Source of the DNA: Sphingomonas crusticola
GTDB taxonomy: Bacteria > Pseudomonadota > Alphaproteobacteria > Sphingomonadales > Sphingomonadaceae
Length of the DNA stretch: 64,000 nt
Direction: 5' to 3'
Assembly (NCBI RefSeq): GCF_003391115.1
Contig: NZ_QTJP01000001.1
Location: forward strand, 2,440,501-2,504,500
Below, one piece after another: positions 32,105-39,774 of this stretch. The translations under genes were made by a program, and so were the position numbers. Position 1 is the stretch's first letter. The number at the start of each line of letters is the position of its first letter. The notes beneath the pieces were generated by a model. That model ran no database searches and was not told the origin of the DNA. It worked only from the letters and a program-made list of their open reading frames with translations.

Positions 32105-33274
32105 TCAGATCGCCTTTTCGTAGATGCGGTACGTCTTGTTGATCCGGCTCTCGATCGTCGAGGCGATGGAATTCATCCCCTGATTGTCCTCCAAAATCCA
32201 GCCGATCTCGCTATGTGTCGAGCCATAGAATTTAAGTGCGGCCTGACGCGTATCTTCGATCATCATGAAAGCTAGCTGGCTCGCCAGCCGGCTGGCCTGA
32301 AGATGCTTCACGACGCCCATCAGGGGAACGCGTGTAGTCCGGACCTTGGGTATGCCGGTCAGGCCGCCGTTCAGGCGCCATAGTAATTTGATGAAGCCGA
32401 ACGGAAACAGATTGCCGTTGAGATCGGCCTGCATCTCGTTGAGATCGGGCCAGGTCATCATGAAGGCGACCGGCTCGCCGTCATATTCGGCGATCTTGAC
32501 GAGATCGTTGAAGATGATCGGCTTCATTTTCTTCCCCGCGAACGCGATCTCGCTCTCGGTGAAGGGTACGAAGCCCCAATTCCCGCTCCATGCGTCGTTG
32601 AGGATATTGAGGATGATCGCCGCCTCGGCGGCGAACTTCTTCTTGTTGACGTCGCGGACGCGAATCCGCGAATTTTTCTGACCGGATTGCACGATCCGCG
32701 CGATGAGGGGCGGGAAGTCCTTGGTGATGTCCAGATCCCACGTGTGGAGATCCTTGACCTTGGCATAGCCCCAGCTCTCCACCCATGCCTCATAGCGCGC
32801 GTCGTCATAGCCCATCATCACCGTGGGTGGATGATCGTGACCTTTGATCAGCAGACCAGGCTCTTCCCAGATCGACATCGAAATCGGCCCGATCGAGCGC
32901 TTGACGCCATGCGTGCGGAGCCACTCCTCCGCCTGTCCGATCAGCAGGTCGGCGACGGCCTTGTCCTCGGCATCGAGATAGCCCCAATTCCCGCTATCGG
33001 CGCCGCCGCCTTTTTCCGGCGGCATCGGCGTCCACATATGATCGATCGAGGCAGAGATACGGCCGACGACTTTGCCCGCCCGCTCCGCCAGATAGAGCTG
33101 CGCCTCGGCGTGCTCGAAAAAGGGATTCTTGCCGGGCGTAATCAGCCCGTAGGCCTCGTCCTTGAGCGGCGGCACCCAGGCCGGATTGTCGGCATAGAGC
33201 CGGAACGGGAGGTCGACGAAAGCCTTGCGGTCCGCCTTGGTGAGAACCGGGCGGATCGTGATCCCGTTCGGCAT
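32105..33274 (-). CDS. GNAT-fold N-acyltransferase; candidate ceramide synthase
   Basis: A 389-aa protein. It opens ITIRPVLTKADRKAFVDLPF then ADNPAWVPPLKDEAYGLITP and GKNPFFEHAEAQLYLAERAG, ending in a GNAT-like core (VVGRISASIDH). A second half runs to the C-terminus (WGFVPFTESE; EIGWILEDNQGMNSIA). Relatives carry the dubious label dATP pyrophosphohydrolase. From memory, the Caulobacter ceramide synthase (bCerS) is of this GNAT-like family, so a role in N-acylation of the sphingoid base is possible. It begins 7 bases after the FA2H-like hydroxylase, so both are one operon. The ATG at 33274 matches the conserved N-terminus. General fold likely; substrate inferred. Confidence 0.65.
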   Translation of the reverse strand: MPNGITIRPVLTKADRKAFVDLPFRLYADNPAWVPPLKDEAYGLITPGKNPFFEHAEAQLYLAERAGKVVGRISASIDHMWTPMPPEKGGGADSGNWGYLDAEDKAVADLLIGQAEEWLRTHGVKRSIGPISMSIWEEPGLLIKGHDHPPTVMMGYDDARYEAWVESWGYAKVKDLHTWDLDITKDFPPLIARIVQSGQKNSRIRVRDVNKKKFAAEAAIILNILNDAWSGNWGFVPFTESEIAFAGKKMKPIIFNDLVKIAEYDGEPVAFMMTWPDLNEMQADLNGNLFPFGFIKLLWRLNGGLTGIPKVRTTRVPLMGVVKHLQASRLASQLAFMMIEDTRQAALKFYGSTHSEIGWILEDNQGMNSIASTIESRINKTYRIYEKAI

Positions 33275-33281
33275 GTAGGCC

Positions 33282-34046
33282 TTATCCCCTGATACGGGTG
33301 GATGGATGTCCCGTGGCGACGCCACCGGAAAGCTCGGCAACCTTCGGATAGACCTTCGCTACCTCAGGCGTGTAGCCAAGATTGAAGACGGTTGGGCTCT
33401 TCTTGCGCTCGCTCACTTTGGCATAGCTGGTGCCGAACAGGCGATCCCAAAAGAAATTGGTGATGCCGAAATTGCCGGTCTCGTCGTGGAAATGATGCGC
33501 CATGTGACGCTGCTTCATCTTCACGAGCAAAGGATGTTTCGGCGTGTAAGCTAGATGCTGAATGCAGTGGCAGAATTCATAGAAGGCCGTCGTAAGCAGG
33601 CCTGAGGCAAGGCCCGCCGCCGCTCCGCCGATACCGCCGAACAGGTACCCGATCGGCATGGTCGCAAGCATGATCGGCGGCAGCGTCGTGTGAAGCGCGC
33701 CGAACAGGATTTCGAGCCGGTTGGGATCTTGATGGTGATCGTAGTGGATGCGCTTCCAGGTCGCAGCCAGCATCGGAACCTTGAACATCCAGCGGCTGTG
33801 CAGCACGAAACGATGCAGCGTGTACCAGACGAGCGGGTATAGCAGGACGGCGACCGCGGCCGACGCGACAGTCGCCAGCGCCGACGCGGGATAGGCAAAC
33901 CACACGCCGATCGAGGCCGCTGCCAGCAGCAGATAAGCGATCACCGCCGGATACTGGAAATAGGCGACCACCAATTGCTTCAAGTTCATGCGATCAAGAT
34001 GATGCTCTCGCCGCCAGAAGCTGGGTTTGACCGAAATACTCGTCAC
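33282..34046 (-). CDS. Fatty acid hydroxylase (FA2H/Scs7-like)
   Basis: A 254-aa membrane di-iron enzyme with about four helices and the histidine boxes of the fatty acid hydroxylase superfamily: LHRFVLH, RIHYDHHQDP, CHCIQH and KQRHMAHHFHDE. After the last box the text NFGITNFFWDRLFGTSY matches the end of sphingolipid 2-hydroxylases (H-x2-HHF-x8-FG-x-T-x3-WD-x2-FGT). It should hydroxylate an acyl chain in the membrane; in sphingomonads the N-acyl chain of glycosphingolipids is 2-hydroxylated, so ceramide is a fitting substrate (inference). GTG at 34046 has GAGG upstream; an ATG at 33989 lacks one. It precedes the GNAT gene by 7 bases. Confidence 0.82.
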   Translation of the reverse strand: MTSISVKPSFWRREHHLDRMNLKQLVVAYFQYPAVIAYLLLAAASIGVWFAYPASALATVASAAVAVLLYPLVWYTLHRFVLHSRWMFKVPMLAATWKRIHYDHHQDPNRLEILFGALHTTLPPIMLATMPIGYLFGGIGGAAAGLASGLLTTAFYEFCHCIQHLAYTPKHPLLVKMKQRHMAHHFHDETGNFGITNFFWDRLFGTSYAKVSERKKSPTVFNLGYTPEVAKVYPKVAELSGGVATGHPSTRIRG

Positions 34047-34120: not shown

Positions 34121-35677
34121 TTAATGGGCCTGAGATGTATCGACTGCCTTGCGCGGCTTGGGCACGAGCCAGATCAGGGCCGCCGAGAGCAGCAGCAGGG
34201 CGGTCGCAATTTCGAACATATGGTCGAGAGAAATGACCAAGCTTTCCTGTGTAAGCAGATTTTCGACCATCGCCCGCACCTGCGCCGGGCTATAGCCGCT
34301 GCTTTCCAGCTGGGCCACCAACCCGGGGGACGGATTGATCGATCCGACCAGTTCGGCATGGGTCCGGACCGCGCCGTTCGCCCATATGGTGGTCGCCACC
34401 GATGTTCCCACGGCGCCCGACAAAGTTCGCATGAAGCTGGAGAGGCCGGCGGCCGACGCGGTCTCCTTGGGCTGGACCGAGCCGAGCGACAGGATGGTCA
34501 GCGGTACGAAGAAGAAGGGCATACCAAGACCCATGGCGAGATGGGGCAGGGCGAGCGTCCAATAGTCAGTCGACGAGGTCCAGCCGGAGCGGACGAAGAT
34601 GCTGCCGGCCATCCAGCACATGCCGAAGGATACCAGCAGCCGCGGATCGAACTTGCCGCTGAGCTTGCCTACGATCAGCGAGAAAACCACCGCGAGCAGG
34701 CCCTGCCAGGCGGTGACATATCCGGACCATTGGGCTGTATAACCCATTGCTCCCTGCAACCATTGCGGGGTGACCACGACGGCCGAGAAGAATGTGCCAT
34801 AGGTCACCGCGAGAGCGATCACGCTTGCGCTGAACCCGCGATGTCGGAACACGCGTAGATCGACCGCGGGATTGTCCTGCGTCAATTCCCAGATCAGGAA
34901 GGTCACGAAACCCACTGCCGCGATGCACGCGAGCGCAACGATGAAGGTGGAATGAAACCAGTCGCGGTCACGGCCGAGGTCGAGCATGATCTGGAGCGCG
35001 CCGACCCACAGCACAAGCAGGGCCATGCCGCCGGCATCGATGCGGGCGCGGACCTGTGCGGTCTCGCAGCGGCGCACCAGCATATAGCTGCCGACCACGC
35101 AGGTGATCGCGATCGGAATGTTGATGAAGAAGATCCAATGCCACGACCAATTGTCGCTGATCGTGCCGCCGAGCACCGGCCCGGCGATCGGCGCGACGAC
35201 GGTCGTCATCGCCCATAATCCCATAGCCTGGCCGCGTTTCTCGGAAGGGAAGACCCGCAGCAACAACGTCTGCGTCAGCGGCATGATCGGGCCGCCGCAA
35301 ATGCCTTGCCCGATACGGGCGGCAACGAGCGCGCCGAGCGTCGGGGACATGCCGCACAGGATCGAAAACAGGCCGAAGCCGGCCATCGCGGCCAGATAGA
35401 CTTTCACGGTCCCGAAACGCATCGCAAGCCAGCCGGTGAGCGGAACGCAGATCGCCTCCGCGACCGAGTAGGACGTGATCACCCACGTACCCTGATCCGG
35501 CGAGATAGCCAGGCTGCCAGCAATATGCGGTACGGACACGTTGGCGATCGACGTATCGAGCACCACCATGAAATTGCTGAGCGCGAGCACGCCTCCGGCG
35601 AGCCACATCGTCGGGCCGGAAAGTGCGCAGCCGTCCCGGCTCGGGGCGGGGTTCGCCGCCATGGCCCTGCTCGCCAC
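34121..35677 (-). CDS. DHA2-family MFS drug exporter (EmrB-like)
   Basis: A 518-aa inner-membrane proton antiporter with about 14 helices. Motif C-like and A-like segments are present: FMVVLDTSIANVSVPHIAGS, the DHA2 signature near helix 1, then LTGWLAMRFGTVKVY and GQGICGGPIMPLTQTLLLRV. It pairs with the membrane-fusion protein just upstream to drive substrates through the outer-membrane channel. I use the GTG at 35677: GGAGG lies 8 bases before it, across the end of the preceding gene; the in-frame region further upstream (to 35851) is not protein-like. Confidence 0.9.
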   Translation of the reverse strand: MASRAMAANPAPSRDGCALSGPTMWLAGGVLALSNFMVVLDTSIANVSVPHIAGSLAISPDQGTWVITSYSVAEAICVPLTGWLAMRFGTVKVYLAAMAGFGLFSILCGMSPTLGALVAARIGQGICGGPIMPLTQTLLLRVFPSEKRGQAMGLWAMTTVVAPIAGPVLGGTISDNWSWHWIFFINIPIAITCVVGSYMLVRRCETAQVRARIDAGGMALLVLWVGALQIMLDLGRDRDWFHSTFIVALACIAAVGFVTFLIWELTQDNPAVDLRVFRHRGFSASVIALAVTYGTFFSAVVVTPQWLQGAMGYTAQWSGYVTAWQGLLAVVFSLIVGKLSGKFDPRLLVSFGMCWMAGSIFVRSGWTSSTDYWTLALPHLAMGLGMPFFFVPLTILSLGSVQPKETASAAGLSSFMRTLSGAVGTSVATTIWANGAVRTHAELVGSINPSPGLVAQLESSGYSPAQVRAMVENLLTQESLVISLDHMFEIATALLLLSAALIWLVPKPRKAVDTSQAH

Positions 35678-35681
35678 CGCC

Positions 35682-36836
35682 TTAGCCTCCGACGTCGATC
35701 GTCGCGTCCATCGACAGCCCGACGCGCAACGGATGCTGCTGTAGCTCGGCCGGGTCGAGCATGATGCGCACCGGCAAGCGCTGCACCACCTTGATCCAAT
35801 TGCCGGTGGCATTCTGTGCCGGGATGATCGCGAAGGCGGATCCGGTGCCACCGGCGAGGCCGGTTACCGTGCCATGAAAGACGACGCTGCCGCCGTAGAG
35901 ATCCGACGTCAGCCGCGCTTTCTGCCCGACCTTGACCTTCTTGAGCTGGCCTTCCTTGTAATTCGCATCGACGTACATGCGGGTGACCGGCACCACCGTC
36001 ATGATCGGCGTGCCCGCCGCGATCCGCTGTCCGATCTGGACGTTGCGCTGTGCGATTACTCCGTCAAAGGGCGCTTTGATGATTGTGCGCGAGAGGTCGA
36101 GCTTGGCGGCGTCGAGCCGCGAGCGGGCGGCAGCGACGTCCGGATTGCTCGCCATCGAGCCCTGCACCAGCGCCTGATTGGCGTTGTAATTCTCCGAAGC
36201 CGCGACACGGTTGGCCTGTGCCTGGGCAATTCCGGAACGCGCGACGGCGAGTTGCGCCTGGGCGGCGGCAAAGGCGTTGGTTGCGCTAGTCAGCTCATCG
36301 CCGGAGACGGCGCCCGATCTGGCAAGGCTCTGGCGGCGGGCGAGATCCACCCGCGCCTTGTCGTAGGACGCTTGCGCGGCAATCATCTCGGCCCGAGCGC
36401 GGTCGATGTCGCTGCTGCGCGCGCCGATCTGCGCCTGGAGCGCACCGCCCGTAGCGCGGCTCTGAACGAACTCATGTTCGGCTTGCGCCAGATCGGCCGC
36501 TGCCCGCTCAACTGCGATCTTCGCGTCGGCCGGGTCGATCGTCACCAGGATATCGCCCTTGTGCACGATCTGGGTGTTAGCCACCCGAACGCTCTCAACC
36601 GCGCCAGCCACCAATGGAGTTATCTGCGCGGTATCGGCGCCAACATAGGCATTGTCGGTCGAGACGTGCCGCACGCCGATGAGGAAGTGATACAGCGTGA
36701 AGAGAAGTGCGATGCCGACGACCACGGCGGCGAGGATCGTGAGCCACTTCCTGCGGCGCTGGGCGAGCGTGCGCGTCGGCGCTTCGTCGGCGGCCGGGCT
36801 CGAAGCGGCCATTTGCGGATTGGGTTGATCGGCCAT
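35682..36836 (-). CDS. Membrane-fusion protein (EmrA/HlyD-like)
   Basis: A 384-aa periplasmic adaptor. A cytoplasmic N-terminus is followed by one membrane helix (about 31-52, WLTILAAVVVGIALLFTLYHF). The first half-lipoyl domain reads STDNAYVGADTAQITPLVAG, then comes a long alpha-helical hairpin of Ala/Gln/Arg heptads (about 110-220). The second lipoyl half contains TIIKAPFDGVIAQRNVQIGQ and the beta-barrel RMYVDANYKEGQLKKVKVGQ. It links the MFS pump to the OprM-like channel gene upstream. Order channel-adaptor-pump in one operon. Confidence 0.92.
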   Translation of the reverse strand: MADQPNPQMAASSPAADEAPTRTLAQRRRKWLTILAAVVVGIALLFTLYHFLIGVRHVSTDNAYVGADTAQITPLVAGAVESVRVANTQIVHKGDILVTIDPADAKIAVERAAADLAQAEHEFVQSRATGGALQAQIGARSSDIDRARAEMIAAQASYDKARVDLARRQSLARSGAVSGDELTSATNAFAAAQAQLAVARSGIAQAQANRVAASENYNANQALVQGSMASNPDVAAARSRLDAAKLDLSRTIIKAPFDGVIAQRNVQIGQRIAAGTPIMTVVPVTRMYVDANYKEGQLKKVKVGQKARLTSDLYGGSVVFHGTVTGLAGGTGSAFAIIPAQNATGNWIKVVQRLPVRIMLDPAELQQHPLRVGLSMDATIDVGG

Positions 36837-36853
36837 CGGGCTGCTCCTGAGTA

Positions 36854-38266
36854 TCAGACGCCGCTAAAGCCGCCGCCAAGCGCGCGCACGAGTGCGACGT
36901 CCAGCGTGAAAGCTCTTGCGGATAGGTCGGCATCGCGGCGGCGGGCGACAATCAGCGCCTGTTCCGCGGTAAGCACATCGAGGTAGGTCGACAAGCCGGC
37001 GCGGTAACGCAGCCGGGCGATTTCAAAGGCTTTCTGACTGTCGGCAAGCGAGGCGCGGGCATCGCTTGCCTGTTGGCCAAGCGCGCTGCGGCTGGCGACC
37101 GCATCGGCGACATCCTGCAGGGCGTTGATCAACGTGCGGTCATAGTCCGCCACAGCTGCATCATAATCGGCGCGAGCCACGCGGTAATCGCCTGATCGCC
37201 GGCCGCTATCGAAGATCGGCAAGGTGAACGCCGGTCCGAAATTACCGTAGGTGGATCCCGACTTTAGCACGTTACCGAAGCCGAGCGCCTGCAGCCCGAC
37301 CAGCCCGCTCAGGCTGATGTCGGGATAGAAAGCGGCGCGCGCAGCCTTGACGCGCTCCGCCTGGGCCTCCACCCGCGCACGGGCGGCGACGATGTCCGGC
37401 CGACGTCCTACGAGGTCGATGCCGGCCGACGCGGGCAGGGCAAGCGTAGCCAGAGCGGCGGATTTCGGCCGGGTGATGGCCAGGCCCCGATCCGGACCGG
37501 CGCCGGTCAAAGCAGCAAGCTGATTGCGCGTCAGCGCGATCTGCTCGTCGATCGCGCCGAGGTCGGCCCGCGCCGCGGGAACGGCGGCCGCCGCCTGGCG
37601 CAACTGGCCCTGCGTATCGACGCCGTTGCGTACGCGGTCGGCAACCAGGCTGGCAGTATCCTGCTGAATGCGCAGCGCCTCCTCGGCGACGTCGCGTTCC
37701 GCAAATAGACGAGCAAGGTCGGCATAAGATGCCGCAATCGAGGTGGCGATCGTCAACCGCGCCTGGGCGCGCTCGACCCGTGCGGCATCGCGCTCGGCAA
37801 GCGCGGCGCGAAGTTGCGCGCGGTTACGGCCCCAAAGATCGAGATCGAGGCTGAAACGGGTGTCGACATTGCCCGTATCCTTCCAGCCCTTGGGCAGGAA
37901 TTCCCTTGGAAAGCCGTTATTGTAGCTCTGCTTTACCTTACCGGCGCTGCCTTCGGCCCCGATCGTCGGTCCCAAAGGCGCGCGGCTCGTCCGGGCGACA
38001 CCTTCGGCGCGTGCGAGCCGCGCGGCGGCGGCAGCAATGTCGGGAGATCCGGCCACGCCCTCTGCAATCAGCTGGTCGAGCTGTGGATCGCCATAAGCCT
38101 GCCACCAGCCATCGCCTGGCCATTGGCCACCTTGATCCGGGAGGCTGCGCTGTGCCGCAAGACTGGACGCCGCGCGCGGAACGGGCTTGTCGCCCAAGTT
38201 CGGCACACACGCCGCCAGTGGCACGAACGCGCCAAGCATCAGCAGCTTTGCTACCCGAAAAACCAT
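36854..38266 (-). CDS. Outer-membrane efflux channel lipoprotein (NodT/OprM-like)
   Basis: A 470-aa RND/MFS-type outer-membrane factor. The leader MVFRVAKLLMLGAFVPLAAC ends in a lipobox, so it is lipid-anchored. Two repeated halves each carry the long coiled-coil hairpins (LARAEGVARTSRAPLGPTIG; ARVEAQAERVKAARAAFYPD). ISLSGLVGLQALGFGNVL and YRAGLSTYLDVLTAEQALIV are family signatures. I take the ATG at 38266; upstream in-frame codons lack a leader-like sequence. First gene of the three-gene efflux operon, divergent from a TetR regulator. Confidence 0.92.
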   Translation of the reverse strand: MVFRVAKLLMLGAFVPLAACVPNLGDKPVPRAASSLAAQRSLPDQGGQWPGDGWWQAYGDPQLDQLIAEGVAGSPDIAAAAARLARAEGVARTSRAPLGPTIGAEGSAGKVKQSYNNGFPREFLPKGWKDTGNVDTRFSLDLDLWGRNRAQLRAALAERDAARVERAQARLTIATSIAASYADLARLFAERDVAEEALRIQQDTASLVADRVRNGVDTQGQLRQAAAAVPAARADLGAIDEQIALTRNQLAALTGAGPDRGLAITRPKSAALATLALPASAGIDLVGRRPDIVAARARVEAQAERVKAARAAFYPDISLSGLVGLQALGFGNVLKSGSTYGNFGPAFTLPIFDSGRRSGDYRVARADYDAAVADYDRTLINALQDVADAVASRSALGQQASDARASLADSQKAFEIARLRYRAGLSTYLDVLTAEQALIVARRRDADLSARAFTLDVALVRALGGGFSGV

Positions 38267-38279
38267 GAGGTCGTGAATC

Positions 38280-38295
38280 CGTACCGTTGCGTACG
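38280..38295. promoter_or_regulatory. Probable TetR operator
   Basis: CGTAC-N6-GTACG (38280-38295) is a perfect inverted repeat in the 90-base gap between the efflux operon and the divergent tetR gene. It lies 14 bases from the first codon of the efflux channel gene, where a bound repressor would block that transcript. Confidence 0.55.
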
Positions 38296-38356
38296 CGAAG
38301 GAGATGGGACGGCGACGGCGCCTTGTCAACCGCAAAATGTACCCTATAGTATCGTT

Positions 38357-38992
38357 ATGGAATTGAGCACGCCCCCCGGCCGGCGCGAGGTCCGCAAGGC
38401 CGATCGTAGGCGCACCATTCTCGAGGTGGCCGAGCGATCGTTCCTGGAACGCGGTTTCGCCGATACGTCGATGTCCACAATCGCTGCCGAACTGGGTGGT
38501 TCCAAGACTACCTTGTGGAGCTATTTTCCGTCCAAGGATGACCTATTCGCGGCAGTGCTCGATTCGAAGATCGAGAGTTTTCGAACTGCACTCGACGAAG
38601 CGCTCATTCCGACGGGGGGGACGACTGGGGCATTGTCGCGCTTCGGGCATGTTTTCCTTAACAAGATATTGTCACCTTCGTCGATCGCGCTTCACCGCCT
38701 GATCGTCGCAGAGGCCGAACGTTTCCCCGCGATGGGCGAGACCTTCGCCGCGCGCGGTCCGGATCGCGTCCGCTCGCGGCTGTGCCGTTACATGGAAGAG
38801 GAAATGGCAGCGGGGCGCCTGCGCCAAGGAGAGCCGATCACTGCCGCACGGCAGTTCGTCGCCCTGCTGCAGGCCGGCTGCTATCTCGACCGGCTGTGGC
38901 GTCCCGCGCGCGCGCCTAACACCGATATTGACGGCGATGTGGCGTCCGCGATCGAGACCTTCATGCGGGCTTGGGGCCCGACCGCGAAGTGA
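38357..38992 (+). CDS. TetR-family repressor of the efflux operon
   Basis: A 211-aa regulator. The N-terminal three-helix DNA-binding domain reads RRTILEVAERSFLERGFADT, then STIAAELGGSKTTLWSYFPS and KDDLFAAVL (about residues 18-68). The rest is a helical ligand-binding and dimer domain of the AcrR C-terminal type. It is divergent from an EmrAB-TolC type operon, with a 16-bp dyad between them, so it likely represses that operon until an inducing drug binds. Its stop overlaps the next gene as GTGA. Confidence 0.92.
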   Translation: MELSTPPGRREVRKADRRRTILEVAERSFLERGFADTSMSTIAAELGGSKTTLWSYFPSKDDLFAAVLDSKIESFRTALDEALIPTGGTTGALSRFGHVFLNKILSPSSIALHRLIVAEAERFPAMGETFAARGPDRVRSRLCRYMEEEMAAGRLRQGEPITAARQFVALLQAGCYLDRLWRPARAPNTDIDGDVASAIETFMRAWGPTAK

Positions 38993-39774
38993 GCGGAATG
39001 CCGTGGACGGCGTTGTTGCTCGCAGGCCAGCGACCGGGCGTCGATCCGCTGGCAGAGGCGTTCGGTCAGCAATGGAAATCGTTGGTTCCGGTTGCCGGCG
39101 AAGCGATGCTGTCACGCGTGGCAAAGACATTGCTCGCCAGTCCGTCCATCACGCATGTGGTGGTTGTCGCTCAACGACCGGATCACCTGTTCGTCGGCGA
39201 TTGCGCCTGGCTCGCGGACGAGCCGCGTATTTCGTCCGCTGTTTCGGTCAGCGGCATCGCCGTCAGCATTGCAGGCCTTGCCGGCACGAAGGCGGCGAGT
39301 TGGCCCGTGTTGGTGACCACCGCCGATCATCCGTTGCTCACCCCGGCGATGGTCGAAGCGATGATCGCGGGCGTAGGCGATGCTGACGTAGCCGTTGGGG
39401 TTGTCTCCAGCGACGTGCTGCTCACCGCCTATCCGGACAATCGCCGCACCTGGCTGAAGTTCGCGCGAGGGGCCTGGACCGGCGCTAACCTTTTCGCCCT
39501 AGCATCGGAGCGCGCACGACCAGCATTGCTCGCCTGGAGCGAGGTCGAACGCGATCGTAAGAAAGCGCTGAAGCTGATCTGGCATTTCGGCCCATGGTTG
39601 GCCGTGCGTGCGATAACCCGCACCATTACCCTCGCCGGCGCGCTTTCGAAGGCGGGTCGGACGCTGGGCGCGGTGGTCCGGCCAATCGCCTTGCCTTTTG
39701 CGGAGGCCGGCATCGATGTCGACAAGCCGAGCGATCACGCGCTGGCCGAGCAGATATTGGCCGCACGGGCCTAG
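38989..39774 (+). CDS. MobA-like nucleotidyltransferase
   Basis: A protein of about 261 aa with the nucleotidyltransferase start TALLLAGQRPGVDPLAEAFG (signature G-x-R-x-G-x-D, as in MobA/IspD-like folds), then QWKSLVPVAGEAML and the metal-binding VLVTTADHPLLTP (about residue 108). The C-terminal third (about 180-261) contains hydrophobic segments (WHFGPWLAVRAITRTITLAG) not usual for MobA. The product could be an NDP-sugar or a CDP-alcohol; not determinable. The start GTG at 38989 overlaps the tetR stop (GTGA); ATG at 38998 is the alternative. Confidence 0.7.
   Translation: MSGMPWTALLLAGQRPGVDPLAEAFGQQWKSLVPVAGEAMLSRVAKTLLASPSITHVVVVAQRPDHLFVGDCAWLADEPRISSAVSVSGIAVSIAGLAGTKAASWPVLVTTADHPLLTPAMVEAMIAGVGDADVAVGVVSSDVLLTAYPDNRRTWLKFARGAWTGANLFALASERARPALLAWSEVERDRKKALKLIWHFGPWLAVRAITRTITLAGALSKAGRTLGAVVRPIALPFAEAGIDVDKPSDHALAEQILAARA

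Follow-up and report, generated by a model that had tools for sequence, protein, structure and literature searches.

An FA2H/Scs7-type hydroxylase gene paired with a predicted ceramide synthase gene in Sphingomonas crusticola, and its alternation with a DesA-type gene in sphingomonads

The window, a stretch of 64,000 nucleotides of Sphingomonas crusticola DNA that was analysed as a whole, contains two adjacent genes that an earlier note, made from the letters alone, had put forward as a sphingolipid module. The features concerned are the following.

32105..33274, minus strand: bCerS (bacterial ceramide synthase) orthologue, a predicted tandem-GNAT N-acyltransferase of 389 aa counted from an ATG; assigned from Spt co-occurrence, synteny and AF2 fold.
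33282..34046, minus strand: HYD, a predicted FA2H/Scs7-type fatty acyl (probably ceramide) hydroxylase of 254 aa with a GTG start; assigned from PF04116, the Scs7 match, the fold and the box histidines.
38971..39774, plus strand: MobA/CofC-like nucleotidyltransferase (PF12804), clustering with those CofC-like genes that immediately follow GNAT elsewhere.

The open reading frame coordinates bear out the proposed arrangement of two minus-strand genes 7 bases apart: the gap (33275-33281) separates the stop codon of HYD from the start of the GNAT gene, which lies downstream, and a GAGG-like ribosome site precedes the GTG start of HYD. The ending HMAHHFHDE...FGITNFFWDRLFGT is also present in the translation of HYD, as described, and the histidine boxes are kept in its orthologues. 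In Pfam, HYD matches PF04116 (FA_hydroxylase, 2.4e-21) and no other domain, and the GNAT protein gives a sub-threshold match only, to PF00583 (GNAT). Neither protein matches an NCBIfam model. The MobA/CofC-like gene is 5 kb from the pair; an EmrAB/outer-membrane efflux operon (34121-38335) lies between them, as does a regulator gene of the TetR type. A homologue of the genes in the CC_1153 slot of the Caulobacter-type cluster, which serve phosphosphingolipid synthesis, it is a probable, loosely linked member of the sphingolipid cluster; together with the pair, it is possibly the remnant of such a cluster split by an insertion.

The pairing of HYD and GNAT exceeds chance. Of the 30 HYD-positive genomes in a class-wide sample of 289, 27 have HYD as the immediate upstream neighbour of GNAT in the same orientation, and 33 of 34 HYD loci adjoin GNAT in 60 close relatives; counts over related genomes are not independent, but the link is nevertheless kept across many families. 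The sole non-adjacent HYD locus of the 60 relatives is a second HYD copy with 63% identity, located away from bCerS (G002:C1:3261915-3262655). In the remaining three HYD-positive genomes of the class-wide sample, HYD is 5-27 kb from spt, and GNAT is distant and diverged (28-32% identity); in two of these three, HYD sits between lptG and a CofC-like gene. At two loci of one family (L049 and L050, from genomes G085 and G217), HYD has kept its position in the spt cluster, flanked by lptG and the CofC-like gene, while bCerS is absent from that cluster, with a diverged GNAT (28-30% identity) far off. The AasR-containing reading frame at both is unusually long, about 1,940-2,160 codons, which suggests a fusion.

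The only real sequence relative of HYD in the PDB is yeast Scs7 (5e-12), with a match that takes in the histidine boxes as well as the closing motif, FG(I/V)T..WD..FGT. An AF2 model of HYD (pLDDT 78) returned four Scs7 chains, and nothing else, in a fold search below E 0.001. Both results strengthen the assignment of the first gene to the FA2H/Scs7 type; the Scs7 entry is labelled as a ceramide fatty acid hydroxylase. Nine histidines (His78, His83, His101, His104, His105, His160, His181, His184 and His185) are invariant in 25 HYD orthologues and a tenth box histidine, His164, is kept in 24 of them. These boxes align with those of the Scs7 metal centre.

Yeast and mammalian FA2H/Scs7 enzymes have a fused cytochrome b5 domain, which is not present in every member of the family. 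HYD shares with them the four histidine boxes and the closing motif but is a bacterial protein of 254 aa consisting of PF04116 alone, without a cytochrome b5 domain; we therefore call it Scs7-like for the hydroxylase domain only, and its electrons would come from a separate donor. A further difference lies in the ceramide synthase that goes with it, here a GNAT protein encoded in the same operon and not one of the TLC type. No operon of myxobacterial FA2H homologues with bCerS is known to us from the literature. FA2H-like enzymes of myxobacteria, from another bacterial lineage and likened to HYD here by description only, are tied to sphingolipid formation (Ring 2009, via PMC10002949).

Two further activities within the PF04116 family have to be weighed, since Sur2-type sphinganine C4-hydroxylases and CrtZ-type carotenoid hydroxylases belong to it as well. 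HYD might, like Sur2, hydroxylate the long-chain base instead of the acyl chain, and its linkage to spt and bCerS would fit any sphingolipid hydroxylase. Nevertheless, HYD matches Scs7 at 5e-12, whereas the genome's second PF04116 protein gives no match, and the gene with which HYD alternates is of the DesA type, a family to which acyl hydroxylation is ascribed (see below); although the comparison included no Sur2 structure, we regard a Sur2-like role as unlikely. Still further down the scale, a CrtZ-like role or action on another non-sphingolipid would be extremely unlikely. The genome does have a carotenoid locus, yet that locus has a PF04116 gene of its own, encoding a sterol-desaturase-like protein beside the lycopene cyclase gene crtY (L002, G000:C1:2642196-2642600), a candidate carotenoid-modifying enzyme. 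This protein does not match Scs7 even at E 1, so the match of HYD to Scs7 is not a generic superfamily signal, and with its position beside crtY we rejected it as the alternative hydroxylase. HYD itself is confined to Spt-positive genomes (present in 30 of 289, all 30 with both Spt and GNAT), and no linkage to carotenoid genes was found, its neighbours being bCerS and spt genes. A carotenoid role, which the earlier note had named as a way to be wrong, thus recedes, while acyl hydroxylation remains the preferred reading.

The GNAT protein had been placed by the earlier note in the family of the Caulobacter ceramide synthase, and both gene order and co-occurrence with Spt now argue for this. Among the 289 alphaproteobacterial genomes, Spt is present in 40 (true Spt being counted at a minimum of 46% identity to that of S. 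crusticola), GNAT in 40 and both in 39; of the two genomes that break the pattern, one is 82% complete and the other has a diverged Spt-like gene adjoining GNAT. In many genomes GNAT is less than 10 kb from spt. A common arrangement is aasR-cerR-acp-spt, a CC_1161-like gene, a kinase, a CDP-alcohol transferase, a phosphoesterase and lptF-lptG-HYD-GNAT-CofC. The Caulobacter cluster runs from CC_1165 to CC_1153, with cerS (CC_1154) between lptG2 (CC_1155) and the CofC-like CC_1153 (PMC11324152). The common order is therefore that of Caulobacter with HYD inserted, and GNAT orthologues fill the CC_1154 slot in several genomes. As the protein tracks Spt, has orthologues in this slot and is encoded by a single-copy gene in S. 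crusticola, we call it bCerS, its orthology to CC_1154 resting on gene order and family; its putative activity is the N-acylation of a long-chain base.

There are also differences from Caulobacter. Descriptions of its cerS locus mention no adjoining FA2H-type gene, whereas here HYD precedes bCerS, and in S. crusticola the cluster is broken up, with spt, acp and cerR located 1.02 Mb from the pair. This split agrees with the scattering of sphingolipid genes reported for Sphingomonadales (PMC11324152). Caulobacter bCerS is a peripheral cytoplasmic membrane protein (PMC11087976).

The AF2 model of the GNAT protein (pLDDT 92.8) has a tandem GNAT fold with tandem GNAT neighbours in the PDB. Among solved structures, those closest in fold are small-molecule N-acetyltransferases, and a PDB sequence search with the protein, singly or as a profile, returned nothing useful. 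It might thus be some other sphingolipid-linked acyltransferase, the true bCerS being encoded elsewhere, all the more as CC_1154 was compared by gene order and not by alignment. This is very improbable, given that GNAT is as universal in Spt genomes as Spt itself and fills the CC_1154 slot. The separate candidate considered, PF04339 (FemAB_like), is present in 173 of the 289 genomes and neither tracks nor adjoins spt, and was dropped; with GNAT in single copy, no separate bCerS was found in the genome. We therefore keep the name bCerS in what follows.

2-Hydroxymyristate in the glycosphingolipid is a hallmark of sphingomonads, in which glycosphingolipids replace LPS. The textbook candidate for its formation is P450-SPalpha (CYP152B1) of S. 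paucimobilis, an H2O2-dependent heme fatty acid alpha-hydroxylase, which has in common with the proposed role of HYD the alpha-hydroxylation of fatty acids in a sphingomonad, but is of unrelated fold. With a query sequence checked against PDB 3awm, homologues were found in only two of the 60 relatives, and S. crusticola has no match at E 1e-30. The relative whose SPalpha is identical to the query (G033), presumably S. paucimobilis judging from that identity, also has the HYD-bCerS pair. An enzyme found in two of 60 relatives cannot be the general source of sphingomonad 2-hydroxy acids, and P450-SPalpha was rejected in that capacity. That these acids come from peroxygenases of this type, with HYD redundant or otherwise employed, is accordingly hardly likely, even though the cloned Sphingomonas fatty acid 2-hydroxylases are P450s (PMC10002949). 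The suggestion that HYD provides an alternative to the P450 route gains in strength.

The earlier note did not foresee that about half of the sphingomonads have a DesA-type gene in place of HYD. In HYD-negative sphingomonads, a divergently oriented gene of PF00487, the fatty acid desaturase family, is found next to bCerS; 14 DesA genes are such divergent neighbours within 350 bases. Among 36 genomes of Sphingomonadaceae, 17 have HYD only, 16 DesA only, one has both and two have neither (of these two genomes, one is 67% complete and one lacks a GNAT match). For the remaining families of Sphingomonadales, the corresponding numbers are 11, 9, 4 and 0. When only the genes beside bCerS are counted, in 80 named loci, HYD is found in 14, DesA in 39, neither in 27 and both in none. 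At the 27 loci that lack both, no third hydroxylase was seen adjoining bCerS, and in most of them it is lptF-lptG that directly precede bCerS. Mapped onto a bCerS tree, the distribution requires at least seven changes, some of them inside Novosphingobium, where DesA predominates but HYD also occurs (80 named loci). In Sphingomonadaceae, then, HYD and DesA alternate, almost never occurring together and usually lying beside bCerS, which is new here.

In Caulobacter, hydroxylation of the sphingolipid's amide-linked acyl chain is reportedly the work of CC_0202, a predicted desaturase/hydroxylase of the DesA family (PMC11324152). The PF00487 genes adjoining bCerS in HYD-negative sphingomonads are likened to it by family, and HYD differs from it in belonging to PF04116. 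Sphingomonadales have C14:0 2-OH as one of their predominant fatty acids, and for Novosphingobium it is listed as a major one (PMC12210278, PMC13292080). From the near-exclusivity of the two genes, the role of CC_0202 and the order-wide C14:0 2-OH, the alternation looks like non-orthologous displacement of one function, with both enzymes acting, we infer, at C-2; the displacement of one 2-hydroxylase by another predicts just this, a 2-OH 14:0 that stays constant while the gene type changes. We consider it probable that an FA2H-type PF04116 and a DesA-type PF00487 enzyme have been swapped repeatedly beside bCerS and that together they, and not P450-SPalpha, make the sphingomonad 2-hydroxy acyl chain. 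Beyond Sphingomonadales, few genomes have a close homologue of DesA; it was therefore rejected as a substitute valid for the whole class, and the either/or claim is limited to this order. Several genomes outside the order with Spt and GNAT have neither HYD nor a close DesA, so acyl hydroxylation is not obligatory to the pathway. The gene inspected between spt and GNAT in HYD-negative genomes outside the order is a phosphoesterase or an unrelated reading frame, not a hydroxylase.

Taken together, these observations largely support the interpretation of the earlier note and lead us to propose, with a probability of about 80%, that HYD and bCerS form a two-gene sphingolipid module in which HYD hydroxylates the acyl chain, C-2 being the likeliest position. 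Computation gives the gene identities, their linkage, co-occurrence and synteny, the conserved ligands and the near-exclusivity with DesA; the chemistry, position, substrate, order and stereochemistry that follow are reasoned from them. Spt, encoded elsewhere in the genome, would make the 3-keto long-chain base, to which bCerS, a GNAT-fold protein, would attach a fatty acyl chain in amide linkage. HYD, presumably in the inner membrane, would use O2, a di-metal centre bound by histidines and an electron donor encoded at another locus to hydroxylate the acyl chain, most likely at C-2, on either the ceramide or the acyl donor. This would yield the ceramide with a 2-hydroxymyristoyl chain that is found in sphingomonad glycosphingolipids, and in other sphingomonads the DesA-type hydroxylase, usually beside bCerS, may do the same job. 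The S form of 2-hydroxy acids is made by many bacteria, and myxobacterial FA2H-like enzymes are reported to make either enantiomer depending on the species (PMC10002949), so stereochemistry is no objection.

Within the same module, HYD could act upstream of bCerS, hydroxylating a free fatty acid or acyl thioester so that bCerS would use a 2-hydroxyacyl donor. Mammalian FA2H is described in this sense as hydroxylating free fatty acids prior to their incorporation (PMC3107802), and the co-operonic arrangement of HYD with bCerS would suit an acyl hand-over. The deposition of Scs7 as a ceramide hydroxylase points the other way and the order of the two steps is not derivable from genomics; we hold this order of events to be a real, if tentative, possibility. 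In either order, the module reading outlined above stands.

A full-text literature search, weak evidence as most subscription papers were outside its scope, turned up no account of HYD and bCerS in one operon, nor of an exchange with DesA. The genome paper of Rhodothalassium annotates a sphingolipid/fatty acid hydroxylase alongside Spt (PMC11762602). The operon matters because the textbook P450 is missing from nearly all relatives examined, and it offers a testable answer to the source of 2-hydroxy sphingolipids in many sphingomonads. Loss of the hydroxyl group of the amide-linked chain is reported to give colistin resistance in Caulobacter (PMC11324152), so HYD may also influence the interaction of the membrane with polymyxins. 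In addition, a bacterial enzyme of the FA2H type that is short and lacks the b5 domain may be a simpler model of human FA2H.

Two other occurrences of the pair are of note. In an 86%-complete genome (G013:C1:182731-184635), HYD and GNAT are each spread over several frames, reflecting either sequencing errors or decay. A contig titled Actinobacteria bacterium 21-64-8 (L092) carries a sphingomonad-like HYD-bCerS pair, probably through an error of binning or naming.
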